From the NCBI RefSeq assembly GCF_005886345.1, contig NZ_PNEC01000008.1:1-64000 (forward strand): a stretch of 64,000 bases of DNA, read 5' to 3'. Of the stretch, positions 4,653 through 29,727 are shown one piece after another. Origin of the DNA: Pseudoalteromonas phenolica (lineage in GTDB: Bacteria > Pseudomonadota > Gammaproteobacteria > Enterobacterales > Alteromonadaceae). How positions within the stretch are numbered: the first letter of the stretch is position 1; every line of letters begins with the position of its first letter. The translations under genes and the position numbers were made by a program. The notes beneath the pieces were generated by a model. The model saw only the letters and a program-made list of their open reading frames with translations. It made no database searches and was not told the DNA's origin.

Positions 4653-5114
4653 ATGAGCGTTGAATTAGATTTACAAATTGTCTGTGAATTTGAAGATTTA
4701 CCTTCACATGAACAGTTTGAATTATGGGCTGACAAGGCCCTATCTGCGTATCGTGAACATGCAGAATTAACGATCCGTATTGCTGATGAAGCTGAAAGCC
4801 AAGAGCTTAACAGCCAGTATCGTGGCAAAGATAAGCCAACTAACGTGCTGTCTTTTCCATTTGATGCGCCACCAGGCATCGAACTCCCTCTTGTTGGCGA
4901 CTTAATTATTTGCCCACAAGTTGTAAAAGCAGAGTCTATTGAGCAAGAAAAAAACTTTCATGAGCACTTCGCTCATATGACGATTCATGGCTGCTTGCAT
5001 TTACTTGGATTTGACCATATAAATGAACAAGACGCCATTGAGATGGAAGGCATCGAAAAAACATTATTAGCCGAATTGGGCATAGACGATCCATATCGTG
5101 ATGATGCTTACTAA
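4653..5114 (+). CDS. ybeY: Endoribonuclease / rRNA maturation factor YbeY
   Basis: A 153-residue zinc metalloprotein of the UPF0054 family, needed for 16S rRNA 3' maturation and 70S quality control. The metal site HGCLHLLGFDH (H-x3-H-x5-H) is intact near residues 113-123, followed by the acidic segment EQDAIEMEG typical of the family. It starts 5 nt after the stop of the ATPase gene ybeZ and precedes ybeX, matching the E. coli order. Confidence 0.96.
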   Translation: MSVELDLQIVCEFEDLPSHEQFELWADKALSAYREHAELTIRIADEAESQELNSQYRGKDKPTNVLSFPFDAPPGIELPLVGDLIICPQVVKAESIEQEKNFHEHFAHMTIHGCLHLLGFDHINEQDAIEMEGIEKTLLAELGIDDPYRDDAY

Positions 5115-5157
5115 GTTCGGCTAACAGAATTTTATTTAATTGGAGATATAAAAAGAA

Positions 5158-6036
5158 ATGAGCGACGATAACTCGCAAAGTAGTCAGGGTTCTGCTGGCA
5201 AAAGCTGGCTAGGACGCATTACCCAGATGCTGCAAGGAGAACCCCAAAATAAAGAAGAGCTGGTTGAAGTCATCGCTGATGCGCAAGAGCGTGCACTCAT
5301 CGATCCTGAGACCAAAGACATGATGGAAGGCGTATTAAGCGTTTCTGAACTTAAAGTTCGCGATATCATGATCCCTCGCTCTCAAATGATTACTTTAGAT
5401 GTAGATGAGTCTCTAGAAAATCAACTACCGATTATGGTTGAATCATCACACTCTCGCTTTCCTGTGATCTGTGAAGACAAAGACCATGTTGAAGGTATTT
5501 TACTGGCTAAAGACTTACTGCCGCTGATTTTGGATAAATCTGATGCCCTACCGGCATTAAGAGAATATCTTCGCCCTGCTATCGTGGTACCAGAGAGTAA
5601 GCGTGTTGACACCTTACTAAATGAGTTCCGTCAAAAGCGTTACCACATGGCGATTGTTATTGATGAGTATGGTGGTGTATCAGGCCTAGTAACCATCGAA
5701 GATATCCTTGAAACAATTGTCGGTGAAATAGAAGACGAACATGATGATGAAGACGAGCACAATGATATTCGTCAACTATCGAAGCATGTATTTACTGTTC
5801 AGGCGCTGACACCATTAGAAGAATTTAACGAGTTTTTTAATACCGAATACGATACTCAGGAAGCTGATACTATCGGTGGTATTATTCTTCATGCCTTTGG
5901 TCACATGCCGAGTCGTGGTGAAATAATCGACATCGAACCGCTACAGTTTAAAGTGACTAACTCTGATAATCGTCGTATTATTCAACTTCAAGTAACAGTA
6001 CCAAAGACTGAAACTACCGAAGATCACGTTGAGTAA
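5158..6036 (+). CDS. ybeX: CorC/YbeX CBS-domain protein
   Basis: A 292-residue cytosolic protein of the CorC family, historically linked to Mg2+/Co2+ efflux and, in E. coli, to ribosome metabolism. Two CBS domains span roughly residues 65-190 ([14 protein letters not shown] and [20 protein letters not shown]). They are followed by an acidic linker ([12 protein letters not shown]) and the C-terminal CorC_HlyC transporter-associated domain (about 205-285). There is no membrane segment. A GGAGAT ribosome site lies upstream of the ATG. The last codons overlap the lnt start by 8 nt, so the two are translationally coupled. Confidence 0.94.
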
Positions 6037-7697: not shown

Positions 7698-8879
7698 TTA
7701 AAGCTTTAATCTCACACCAAGCTTGTTTAAGCCAGTCACAGCAAACATCATCATCACTGCAAACCCTAGGCTCCATAGAATCCCCATAACGCCACTACTC
7801 ATAAACTCAGGTCTTGCTGGAATTGATAGTAGCTGTAAGGCTGCAATTAAAATATAAGGCAAGATATAAATTAATAATGGGTTATTTGCTGCCGGTTCAA
7901 ATACCTTGCACCAATCAGTCTGTGCCTTTAACTCAACGATGTAATAAATAGCACCAAAGATCAGTGCACAGAAGAAGATACTCATGAATGCCCAACTTGG
8001 CGTTGCCCATATCTTAGAAACTGGCCAATGCCACCAGCTCAATAAGGTAAGTGCGCCACTAACAAATACAAAAGCAAAATAGTTGAACCTTTTTTTGGAA
8101 GTTAATTTATCGTGATAAAAAATTAAACTCATCACCACACCTGCTAACACTATCGTCGCATGAGTATGGTTTCGATTATCTTCGACAAGTCGGTCAAGCA
8201 CACCGTTAATACCACTTAAGTGCTCTACAACAAAAAATAGCGCGACAAAAGCAAGACTGGCCGCAATTAATTTAATGACATCTTGCTTAGTAAATAAATA
8301 AACTGCCACGCTGAAAATAAACGCCCATCCGATTAGGCCTAGGATCCCCCACCATTGAAGCGTCATACCACCGTAAGGGCCGTCATAAAAATATGCCAGT
8401 ACAATAAGGCCAAGTATGCCTAAATATTTGCAGCCTTTGACCAATACACTTGAAAGATGTTTTGGATAATAACTCCATATGAGTAGTACACAGGCATACA
8501 TCAACAAAGTCCAAAGCGGGATAGGTATCGGCATTTTGCTTTCGTCATAACCATATATGGTGTTTACCATAAACAAGCCGATTACGATTAAGCCGAGTGC
8601 TCTGAAGGCTGCATCAATCAATAAATGTTTTGAGCTCGCCCCTTTTGCAACTTTTGCTTGTGTTGAAAATGGAATAGACATTCCCACAATAAATAAGAAT
8701 GCTGGGAATACTAAATCTACAAAAGTCATGGCGTTCGCATCGGCAGGCATATGCGTCATCCAAGCAGGAATATTTTTAATTGCGGCAAGTTCGTTCACAA
8801 ATACCATGGTGAGGATCGTCAAACCACGGAAAACATCGATAGCCAGAATGCGACGGCTAGGTAAGCTGTGCTCAGTCAT
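7698..8879 (-). CDS. NagX-like membrane acyltransferase (DUF5009 / HGSNAT-like)
   Basis: A 393-residue polytopic membrane protein with about ten hydrophobic segments. The N-terminal block, with RILAIDVFRGLTILTMVFVNE and later DLVFPAFLFIVGMSIPFS, is the signature of the COG4299 family, related to heparan-alpha-glucosaminide N-acetyltransferase. In Shewanella and relatives the family member NagX sits in chitin/N-acetylglucosamine operons. Here no sugar genes are adjacent, so the substrate is unknown. A GAGAG ribosome site precedes the ATG. The gene stands alone between a small membrane protein upstream and a terminator shared with lnt. Confidence 0.8.
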   Translation of the reverse strand: MTEHSLPSRRILAIDVFRGLTILTMVFVNELAAIKNIPAWMTHMPADANAMTFVDLVFPAFLFIVGMSIPFSTQAKVAKGASSKHLLIDAAFRALGLIVIGLFMVNTIYGYDESKMPIPIPLWTLLMYACVLLIWSYYPKHLSSVLVKGCKYLGILGLIVLAYFYDGPYGGMTLQWWGILGLIGWAFIFSVAVYLFTKQDVIKLIAASLAFVALFFVVEHLSGINGVLDRLVEDNRNHTHATIVLAGVVMSLIFYHDKLTSKKRFNYFAFVFVSGALTLLSWWHWPVSKIWATPSWAFMSIFFCALIFGAIYYIVELKAQTDWCKVFEPAANNPLLIYILPYILIAALQLLSIPARPEFMSSGVMGILWSLGFAVMMMFAVTGLNKLGVRLKL

Positions 8880-27188: not shown

Positions 27189-28055
27189 ATGAGATCTCAC
27201 TTGGTTTTACTTTCGCTGTCTTTTTTAAGTGCTTGTAGTGGCGGTGGCAGTGAGCCTCTAAGAAAAGACAACACAACTACTCCCTCCATTACTCAAACAG
27301 CCCAATGCGGTGATAGTTTCTCTGCTCAGCGGAATTTAAATAAGCAAGAAATAAATACAGCTTATTGGCAAATAGAAGGTGAACAGCTTCAGACAAAACC
27401 ACAAGTAAACTTCTTTACAACTCGCTCTAGTAGCCTTGCAGAGACTTCTTATCGAGGCTCAGAAACTCTATGTGAACAAGTAGCCAATATATTCGGTGCA
27501 GATATCAGAGAAACTTGGCAAGGTGCTGAAACAAGCTCTATCAAGCCAGGACAGCAATTAAAATATACACCTGAATTAAGCTTATCATTCTCTCTACCTA
27601 ACTTCGCATCTTTAGCCGATTGGCGAGCTCAAGGCAGTCCCCGCTCGGTGACGACACAGCTTGCTAAAAGCACCTTAACTGTTTGGTATGAAAACAATGA
27701 AGATCAACGTTTTTTACAAGGCGAGTTAGTAAACAATCAAAAAGAACTACCGCTTAATTGTGAAAACAATGCCTTTCAATTAACGGTATTGCTAAGCGAA
27801 ATTGACTCACAATTTAGTGCGAATCTAAACCCTGCTTATTGTGAAGAAAGTAGAAATGGAAATATTACGAAAACGTCTTGTTTGAATGTTAGTTTGGCAG
27901 AAACGGTTGCAATTGAACAATGCCAGTTTGCTCTAACCGATGTATATATACCTGATAGTCAAGGCAATAAAACGGCTGTTAAATTGGCTGGAAAAGTGAG
28001 CGCTGCGACTGACTCAGGTGTGATACTTAACGTCGATGGTATTGATATAAATTAA
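27189..28055 (+). CDS. Predicted lipoprotein of unknown function
   Basis: A 288-residue protein with a signal peptide ending at the lipobox LSAC (Cys about 16), then a Gly/Ser-rich CSGGGSEP linker typical of Alteromonadales lipoproteins. The mature part is polar, with cysteines at about 38, 98, 198, 221, 232 and 246 that could form disulfides. No known domain is recognised. A GGACG ribosome site precedes the ATG. It follows tyrP after 54 nt and may be partly co-transcribed. Confidence 0.7.
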   Translation: MRSHLVLLSLSFLSACSGGGSEPLRKDNTTTPSITQTAQCGDSFSAQRNLNKQEINTAYWQIEGEQLQTKPQVNFFTTRSSSLAETSYRGSETLCEQVANIFGADIRETWQGAETSSIKPGQQLKYTPELSLSFSLPNFASLADWRAQGSPRSVTTQLAKSTLTVWYENNEDQRFLQGELVNNQKELPLNCENNAFQLTVLLSEIDSQFSANLNPAYCEESRNGNITKTSCLNVSLAETVAIEQCQFALTDVYIPDSQGNKTAVKLAGKVSAATDSGVILNVDGIDIN

Positions 28056-28085: not shown

Positions 28086-28592
28086 TTAAGTCGCAGTTGA
28101 GCGTGTCTTGAATTTTGTTTTAATCACAAAAAATACTGGCAGAAAACACAGTATCACAGTACAAATATTTACCAGTGGTAATATTGTTTTATACAAATAG
28201 GTTGAGTAGCTTAAATCTAGATAGTGTCTGTCTACTAATCTAAACAGCTGCATAATTGGTGCAGGCAAAATGATCAATTGCGCAAGCACACTTTGCCATA
28301 AGTATGCTTTATCTTTGAGAGCCCAGATAGCTAAAATAGCCATAAAAACCAGATCACTGAATGCCCAATAGATGTAGCGAATAACATAGAGATCGGCATC
28401 TACTTGCTTCACGACCGGAAAAGAAAAATATCCTAAAACGTAAAATGCGGCACATAATGCCGCATATCTTAATGCTTTCTCATCTCTTAAAACTAAAAAC
28501 AACACCACAGCAATAAAAGTTAATAATGTTGCATGATCTCTGATCAATAGAAGAAACTGATTGAAGTAAGTGCTGTTTAAATCGAAGGACAT
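28086..28592 (-). CDS. Five-to-six-segment membrane protein, unknown function
   Basis: A 168-residue hydrophobic protein with segments at about 15-35, 42-60, 70-90, 98-115 and 138-160 and a basic C-terminal tail (KTKFKTRSTAT), which suggests a cytosolic C-terminus. No family is recognised. The ribosome site is weak. It starts 24 nt after the stop of a 30-codon ORF on the same strand, so the two may form one transcription unit. Confidence 0.68.
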   Translation of the reverse strand: MSFDLNSTYFNQFLLLIRDHATLLTFIAVVLFLVLRDEKALRYAALCAAFYVLGYFSFPVVKQVDADLYVIRYIYWAFSDLVFMAILAIWALKDKAYLWQSVLAQLIILPAPIMQLFRLVDRHYLDLSYSTYLYKTILPLVNICTVILCFLPVFFVIKTKFKTRSTAT

Positions 28593-28616: not shown

Positions 28617-28709
28617 TTAAACTAATGACACCTTAGGTGGCTCATCATTATCATCAGCACCATCGCCATTATTACCTGGAATATAAGCGTATTTACTTAA
28701 CATAGACAT
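28617..28709 (-). CDS. Small ORF, 30-residue peptide of unknown function
   Basis: A 30-codon ORF beginning MSMLSKYAYIPG, with an acidic centre (GDGADDNDEPP) and ending KVSLV. Support comes from a near-perfect ribosome site AAGGAG 8 nt before the ATG. There is also a 13-bp inverted repeat whose inner end overlaps that site. The ORF sits 88 nt after pomB and 24 nt before a membrane protein gene on the same strand. It has no hydrophobic segment or obvious leader. It could be a small regulatory or precursor peptide. Whether it is translated cannot be told from sequence. Confidence 0.55.
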   Translation of the reverse strand: MSMLSKYAYIPGNNGDGADDNDEPPKVSLV

Positions 28710-28720
28710 ATGTGTATCTC

Positions 28721-28771
28721 CTTGATAGTTGGTCCAAGTTCAAATTAGCGTAAAATGAACCATCTATCAAG
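28721..28771 (-). promoter_or_regulatory. Inverted repeat overlapping the small ORF's ribosome site
   Basis: Arms 28721-28733 and 28759-28771 are complementary over 13 bp with one mismatch. In a minus-strand RNA the 3' arm ends in the first three bases of the AAGGAG ribosome site of the 30-codon ORF, so folding could hinder initiation. A possible promoter (TTGATA, 17 bp, TAATTT) also uses the 5' arm, so a protein operator is the alternative. Confidence 0.5.
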
Positions 28772-28797: not shown

Positions 28798-29727
28798 TTA
28801 ATTACCACGCAATTCTATAGGATCGGATTCTTTTGCCTTACCTTGCAAAATAGAAATTTCGACACGGCGGTTTCGGCGCCTATCATTATCATTCTCATTC
28901 GGAACCAATGGCCTAGTATCCGCGTGACCCACTACTACCATACGATTCTTATCAAACCCTTGAGCTTTAACCATTTCACTGGCAACAGCTACGGCACGTG
29001 TTGCCGATAAGTCCCAATTATTCGAGTAAAGCTCGTTAGTCACTTGAAAATCATCAGTATGGCCTGAAACGGTTATTTCACCGGGAACATCTTTGAGTAA
29101 ATCTGCGATTTCACGAATGATAGGTTTGAATTTAGGTTGAAGAAATGCGCTACCAGAGGGGAAAGCACCATTTTCTTGGATCCGAATAATAATTTGCTGA
29201 CCTAATGACTCAAGTTCAATCGCACCATCCATAATCTGCTTTTCCATTTGCTGAGCGATCTTTTTCACAAGCTCATTTACTTGCTCTTGATCTGCAGCTG
29301 AAATAGCTTGCTCCATCGATTGCTCTTGCGAGGTACTTTGTGATTCGCCACCCCGCTTATTGCCTCTCTGCTCTTGACGTCCCCCTGCAGAGGCTTCATC
29401 ACCAGCTTGGAACTCCAACATTTGTTGTGTCATTTCAACAGTTTGCTGTTGAATTGTCTCAATAGGAGTGGGCTCAGGTTTACCTGGAGTAAACTCCATT
29501 GCAATGACGCTTGTCCCTTTTGGAATATCTTTTACTTCAATTTTGTTTTGCACACCGAAAGCAAACTTCATAGAACCAGCAATCTGTTTAAACTTCAATA
29601 CATCCATCTCTGAGAAAGCCAGCAGCAGTACGAAGAAACACATCAATAACGACATTAAGTCAGCAAATGTTCCCATCCAAGCAGGTAAACCCGGGGGAGG
29701 ACATTTACATTCTTGTTCATCTGACAT
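28798..29727 (-). CDS. pomB: Sodium-type flagellar motor protein PomB
   Basis: A 309-residue stator subunit with one membrane segment (about 17-40) and a C-terminal OmpA-like peptidoglycan-binding domain (about 175-295). The ion-binding aspartate is Asp23 in GTFADLMSLLM, equivalent to PomB Asp24. The N-terminal CPPPGLPAWMGTFADL and following FSEMDVLKFKQIAGSMKFAFG are the Vibrio PomB type rather than H+-type MotB, so Na+ coupling is inferred. A Q/E/S-rich linker covers about 105-160. It directly follows pomA. Confidence 0.94.
   Translation of the reverse strand: MSDEQECKCPPPGLPAWMGTFADLMSLLMCFFVLLLAFSEMDVLKFKQIAGSMKFAFGVQNKIEVKDIPKGTSVIAMEFTPGKPEPTPIETIQQQTVEMTQQMLEFQAGDEASAGGRQEQRGNKRGGESQSTSQEQSMEQAISAADQEQVNELVKKIAQQMEKQIMDGAIELESLGQQIIIRIQENGAFPSGSAFLQPKFKPIIREIADLLKDVPGEITVSGHTDDFQVTNELYSNNWDLSATRAVAVASEMVKAQGFDKNRMVVVGHADTRPLVPNENDNDRRRNRRVEISILQGKAKESDPIELRGN

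Follow-up and report, generated by a model that had tools for sequence, protein, structure and literature searches.

Is the 30-codon open reading frame that lies between a stator gene and a membrane protein gene of Pseudoalteromonas phenolica a gene, and if so, where does its product act and on what? The following sections describe the locus, its conservation in the genus, its distant relatives and the explanations that these permit.

Organisation of the locus

The window, i.e. the whole stretch of 64,000 nucleotides analysed here, contains the reading frame (MSMLSKYAYIPGNNGDGADDNDEPPKVSLV) at 28617..28709 on the minus strand, with an ATG start and 30 codons plus stop. A ribosome-binding site, AAGGAG (28718..28723, minus strand), is located exactly 8 nt upstream of the ATG, and a gap of 24 nt separates the frame from the membrane protein gene that follows it (28086..28592, minus strand, 168 aa), exactly as the sequence-only reading had described. 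The upstream gene (28798..29727, minus strand) encodes a stator protein scoring 498 bits on the NCBIfam model PRK08944 'MotB family' (cut-off 259); the name pomB, given to it by the same reading, fits this match and the adjoining PomA-like gene, the latter judged by eye. The next long reading frame (27189-28055, plus strand) is convergent, no one-TM gene lies directly downstream, and neither a sensor kinase nor a regulator nor any third gene is linked to the window locus. A promoter scan returned three promoter-like sites, all on the plus strand, against 4.0 expected, and its sole terminator-like site falls within the membrane gene.

The conserved core of the peptide extends from K6 to D19 (28653..28694, minus strand) and reads K-Y/F-x-x-M/I/L-P-G-x-N-G-x-G-x-D according to the alignment columns. 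P11, G12, G15, G17 and D19 do not vary in an alignment of 22 rows, and column counts over 51 sequences give the Pro, the Asn, two Gly and the Asp of the core as invariant. The conserved block lies mid-peptide and is followed by an acidic C-terminal tail that is variable among the 51 sequences. Any Cys is present in just 10 of these 51 peptides, and none is conserved. No export signal is readable by eye in the window peptide, YIPGNN and PGNN being no double glycine, nor was a signal sequence recognised by eye in the other Pseudoalteromonas peptides. GGAG or AGGA occurs 3-18 nt ahead of the start codon in 42 of 51 relatives and is missing in 9.

Two loci (L076 and L198) possess an additional peptide-like frame upstream of the peptide, with an altered C-terminus and without an additional membrane gene. 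In the clade L199-L202, L206, L216, L222 and L223, approximately the last 70 nt before the peptide start contain a stretch conserved by eye, with the order TTGGCAAAGTAC, a TTAGC-TAAAGT-like block and then, in most of that clade, TTA(A/G)CAAGTGTAA; this is perhaps a promoter or operator.

Selection and conservation within the genus

In 25 independent pairs, drawn from 51 sequences with each sequence used once, dN/dS of the peptide is 0.29 in frame but 1.21 and 1.12 when the frame is shifted; the selection excluded pairs of identical sequences and those exceeding 0.7 synonymous changes per site. Changes at codon positions 1, 2 and 3 number 63, 63 and 129. A DNA palindrome as the sole conserved element is ruled out because changes pile up at third codon positions, and a chance reading frame by the frame-specific purifying selection together with conservation across the genus. 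Sequence comparison thus makes it nearly certain that the frame is a real gene. The earlier claim of a real small gene holds, and loss of the frame in relatives, which that reading had named as its refutation, did not occur.

Of the 108 genus genomes, 72 contain a match to the peptide (E<=1) in a six-frame search. Matches number 78, of which 75 are followed within 600 nt by a gene of the same membrane family; the remaining three are weak (E>=0.3) and fall inside frames of 370 and 3982 aa. The membrane family itself yields 99 hits, i.e. 98 genes, two overlapping hits in genome G091 being counted as one, in 92 of the 108 genomes. Direct peptide matches (E<=1) are found in 72 of the 92 membrane-positive versus 0 of the 16 membrane-negative genomes (Fisher 1.4e-9). 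A peptide-like frame precedes 97 of the 98 membrane genes, comprising 75 membrane hits with a search match upstream and 22 of 23 further loci read individually; in the exception (G046:C39) the contig end truncates the locus. In L084, L088 and L097, which have tandem duplicates of the membrane gene, every copy is accompanied by a peptide of its own. Both observations support the proposal of the sequence-only reading that the peptide acts with the downstream membrane protein.

Distances of peptide and membrane protein correlate after removal of pomB divergence (partial r 0.43, 0 of 999 permutations, 51 sequences). Compared with the adjoining pomB, the pair changes far more quickly, judged by mean identities among the 51 sequences of 53 percent for the peptide and 56 percent for the membrane protein versus 92 percent for pomB. 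It is dispensable, since 16 of the 108 genus genomes do without it. The order pomB - peptide - membrane gene is found in 50 of 50 named contigs, all Pseudoalteromonas, with pomB at most 5 kb upstream in every one of them. Among the named relatives listed, P. phenolica S3663 is nearest, its membrane protein being 84 percent identical.

The membrane partner

The AlphaFold2 model of the membrane protein (mean pLDDT 86) was interpreted as having five TM segments, with a break at 108-110 in the fourth, and loop charges predict an N-out/C-in topology. Conserved polar positions show a modest excess on the outer side, with 11 of 19 outer and 8 inner in an alignment of 19 rows. The best kept residues of the wider alignment A4 are Y73, R118 and W76, followed by P152, R122 and N142, all on the predicted outer side except P152. 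In the model, residues such as R72, Y73, W76, R118 and D121 would form a cluster on the outer face. No His or Cys is conserved throughout the family.

Neither Pfam nor NCBIfam contains a family matching the window peptide, so that the earlier verdict of no recognised family stands. The window membrane protein has no match in Pfam, NCBIfam or PHROGs, and in PADLOC just two, at E 0.23 and 0.66. PHROG_31674, of unknown function, weakly matches three distant members (E 0.0027-0.051). The 19 members of the first profile (A1) touch 12 Pfam families at E<=1, the best being DUF1275 (8.9e-4). Foldseek detects no fold relative of the five-TM model at E<=0.001; VIA-align gives helical bundles with a best Z of 8.7, and the best viral fold match has E 0.079. 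No PDB sequence matches the membrane protein at E<=1, and no Rfam family reaches the gathering score in five loci. In the open-licence literature searched, no description of this peptide/membrane family was found, and six peptide strings did not occur in the literature text searched.

Distant relatives

Profiles were broadened stepwise from A1 (19 members) to A3 and A4. Of 40 genomes from another family of the order, 20 carry the membrane protein according to the widened profile. When the order is sampled evenly, 40 of 394 genomes match, or 29 of 394 after setting aside eleven. Ten of these (G212, G240, G266, G278, G310, G320, G416, G425, G434 and G443) match only around profile positions 32-81, in frames of 75-97 aa, and G314 is a partial match with no Gly-rich frame ahead. 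The own genome's other match (C89) and one of seven in genome G012 (C1), each in a 79-aa frame, were excluded likewise. The even class sample, searched with the widened profile, returns one of 369 genomes, the own genome only; the other class search returns two of 369, the own genome and one partial match to positions 60-102. On these samples the family appears restricted to the order. Profile comparison by hhalign connects A1 with a seven-row alignment including the phage protein gp6 (97.4 percent, E 1.5e-11) and, weakly, with the f20-type proteins (29 percent, E 6e-4), which A4 finds at E 5e-7 to 7e-12. The seven membrane-family matches of G012 (L226-L230 and L106) include one that is short and partial, and on two contigs the copies lie within 16 kb of each other or in tandem.

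Of 53 distant membrane genes, 39 have a Gly-rich, acidic, Pro-containing motif frame at most 450 nt upstream; for places picked at random in these loci the figure is 1611 of 20000. This pattern, like that for one-TM genes, was chosen after data inspection. A narrower limit of 130 nt gives 37 of 61, duplicates partly counted, against a background of 463 of 20000. The 14 of 53 genes without a motif frame within 450 nt include second tandem copies in L140 and L142, and three of them (L109, L228, L231) have a Gly-rich frame upstream that the pattern missed. Other tandem duplicates, in other-family loci such as L105 and L118-L120, each keep a peptide.

The motif is carried by Sec-type precursors, by double-glycine-like leaders, by FlgM-like proteins or by almost nothing, the Sec signals and double-glycine leaders being assigned by eye. 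Sec-type precursors with tandem repeats occur in L104 (five copies), L131 (VGGQGGGVEPVA, six), L132 (VGGHGGVEPVA, five) and L134 (VGGGVEPVS, eight), single-copy ones in L143 and L239. Arrays of 5-8 near-identical copies, such as that in L104:10047-10424, are unusual in themselves. Double-glycine-like leaders are present in L106, L107, L108, L226 and gp5 of phage C5a; those tested match no NCBIfam model at E<=10, and a ComC match for L226 (E 0.055) remains below the cut-off. Proteins of 81-112 aa in L235, L237, L238 and L241 have one to three GNGAGIEPPK-like tail copies at or near the end, and the motif frames of L236, L240 and L243 are very short, with 19-23 aa.

Distant membrane genes are also frequently followed by a gene for a one-TM protein of 75-150 aa. 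It starts within 150 nt of the membrane-gene end in 39 of 52 cases versus 300 of 3120 random places, one additional distant membrane gene sitting at a contig edge. The count is 19 of 52 if an overlap of 45 nt is allowed and 39 of 52 with 150 nt, because one large subgroup overlaps by approximately 107 nt. These third genes are very divergent.

Copies in phages, prophages and plasmids

The Pseudoalteromonas phages C5a (L249:3580-4655) and ACA1 (L250:2691-3766) possess a three-gene version consisting of the peptide gp5 (MNKQHVNGKSVLLSAQVSGGEDTQDNGGGGGGVEPPKLN in C5a), the five-TM protein gp6 and the one-TM protein gp7. It is located in the immunity region, between a protease gene (LexA-like per the ACA1 record) and the repressor. 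The same record mentions a weak HHpred match of gp5 to TIGR01847, an export signal. A term search of the ACA1 paper text (PMC10612066) finds no gp5, gp6, gp7, TIGR01847, bacteriocin or export.

The copies in L108 and L109 adjoin genes that, judged by eye, are those of a prophage repressor and of recombination, and the L109 peptide (MKHKYSYIPGGDNGTDEVRND) resembles chromosomal peptides. In the prophage-like region of L108 a further 72-aa Gly-rich protein (8573-8791, with GSGGGTEPP and TGGGGLDPK) follows the cassette.

A relative of the L238 protein is present on 60 plasmid records, none covering 80 percent of the query. The four records examined (L246-L248 and L251, approximately 4657-5719) carry the cassette relative beside sul1 and blaPER. 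The plasmid peptide relative resembles FlgM, though below the threshold (E 0.5). In two of three translated plasmid records the annotated peptide frame is without the tail. PER genes are reported to originate in Pararheinheimera (PMC7782503), so the plasmid copy beside blaPER looks like a passenger.

Searches of plasmids with the peptide and scans of viral contigs gave no lead, nor did searching phages with the membrane proteins of L109 and L104; for the window membrane protein, phages and plasmids offered no useful match.

Comparison with known systems

Among the closest systems are gp5-gp6-gp7 of C5a and ACA1, which combine a Gly-rich peptide with an EPPK tail, a related five-TM protein and a one-TM third gene in the same order. 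The window family shares with them a homologous five-TM protein after a Gly-rich acidic peptide (E 1.5e-11), although the phage protein was found with L106, at approximately 24 percent identity, and not with the window protein. The phage genes differ from the window locus in the double-glycine-like leader and in the third gene, as no one-TM gene directly follows the membrane gene in the window.

Double-glycine exported peptides, such as class II microcins and the ComC type, have leaders that end in GG (or GA/GS) and contain spaced hydrophobic residues. Several relatives have N-termini resembling such leaders of C39-exported peptides, but the window peptide is without GG and no family model matches it. 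The own genome encodes two proteins with a C39 peptidase, on other contigs (C108 and C96).

In AgrD/AgrB the peptide core contains a Cys and the membrane protein a His/Cys active site. The adjoining of a small peptide gene and one polytopic membrane gene is similar here, but the peptide is without a conserved Cys and the membrane family without a kept His or Cys. SecM and TnaC, arrest and attenuation leaders, have conserved arrest residues close to the 3' end and leave space for a regulatory RNA before the next gene. The window family, in contrast, has its conserved block mid-peptide, a variable end and gaps of 2-57 nt to the membrane gene, as read in the first 30 loci. DUF1275 (PF06912) is weakly matched by 5 of 19 members, whereas the window protein matches no Pfam family and the gathering score is not reached. 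DUF1275 proteins are other genes elsewhere in 6 of 21 genomes, and none occurs in the window genome at E<=0.001.

A proposed exported ligand and its membrane partner

The reading we prefer, with a probability of roughly 0.45, is that the peptide is an exported ligand and the five-TM protein its dedicated membrane partner, probably a sensor. The Gly-rich acidic peptide would act outside the cytoplasm, as a signal or modulator dedicated to the five-TM protein of the inner membrane. A product acting there as a ligand fits because the motif persists while its carriers, mostly of export type and some in tandem, change. The partnership is suggested by the five-TM protein being the only constant companion, with its best conserved residues outward in the predicted topology. 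The Pseudoalteromonas peptide would be exported too, a double-glycine ABC exporter being one candidate route, and would bind at the periplasmic face of the five-TM protein, in the cluster of R72, Y73, W76, R118 and D121. Binding may then be signalled inward through the one-TM partner in other lineages and through an unlinked partner in the lineage of the window. The sequence-only reading had proposed a regulatory or precursor peptide; the exported, repeat-bearing relatives would favour a precursor or ligand over a regulatory peptide. Several findings speak against a ligand: the core is invariant, more so than expected of a pheromone that sets specificity; an export signal is not readable in the window peptide, and the window locus has no linked signalling gene; 14 of 53 distant genes have no motif frame; the pair is missing from 16 of 108 genus genomes; and the five-TM model is without a significant fold relative.

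An extension of this reading, itself unlikely, is a system of peptide communication among Gram-negative marine bacteria, in which one motif would reach a dedicated five-TM receptor by any of several interchangeable routes of export: Sec precursors holding as many as eight copies, double-glycine leaders, FlgM-like proteins or a gene pared down to 19-38 aa. Phages would have taken it up into the immunity region, and by analogy with arbitrium temperate phages might use the cassette to sense lysogen density.

Rather unlikely, too, is a peptide that is not exported and serves as a small subunit or assembly factor, binding the five-TM protein from the cytoplasm or at the surface to stabilise or tune it. 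The absence by eye of a signal sequence from the Pseudoalteromonas peptides, the pairing with the membrane gene down to tandem copies and the invariance of the short core would all agree with this, but the cassette relatives with Sec-type signals, tandem repeats and double-glycine-like leaders place the motif outside the cytoplasm.

The same leaders in several lineages would also agree with a microcin-like bacteriocin peptide and a membrane immunity protein, as would the weak detection of TIGR01847 in gp5 in the ACA1 record, the membrane partner immediately downstream, the copies in phages and prophage-like regions, and the divergence of both proteins, much faster than that of pomB. We regard this as improbable: the pair has a single fixed locus (50 of 50 named contigs), and its presence in 92 of 108 genomes is not sporadic; the peptide is small, hydrophilic and acidic, and its core does not vary; precursors made of tandem repeats do not suit a bacteriocin; and the leaders tested are without an NCBIfam match.

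A cis-acting leader, whose translation would control that of the membrane gene by pausing or coupling and whose product would be functionless, might be read from the gap of 2-57 nt between the frame and the membrane gene that follows it, as seen in the first 30 loci, and from the Pro-Pro close to the stop in some tails. It is very improbable, however, with a conserved block that is central and a C-terminus that varies, with gaps so short that they leave little space for alternative RNA structures, with relatives bearing tandem repeats and Sec-type signals, with extra peptide-like frames in L076 and L198 that have no extra membrane gene, and with no Rfam family at the gathering score in five loci. 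Least probable of all is an action on the flagellar stator PomAB encoded alongside in the genus, to which pomB in 50 of 50 named contigs and the FlgM similarity of the plasmid relative might point, as synteny by itself is weak evidence and no pomB match is found in 55 distant loci, many with only 1.5 kb of flank.

Significance

The arrangement of a peptide with a membrane partner is already known, and the present family, whose carriers are interchangeable, matches none of those tested. A gene of approximately 20-40 codons, small enough to escape annotation, forms half of a module in 92 of 108 genomes of Pseudoalteromonas, a genus studied for biofilms and bioactive compounds. The peptide/membrane-protein pair is small, clean and amenable to testing, and natural variants such as the repeat precursors and phage copies already hint at the part of the peptide that matters. 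Should the pair signal, it would represent a new peptide-sensing system for Gram-negative bacteria and their temperate phages.
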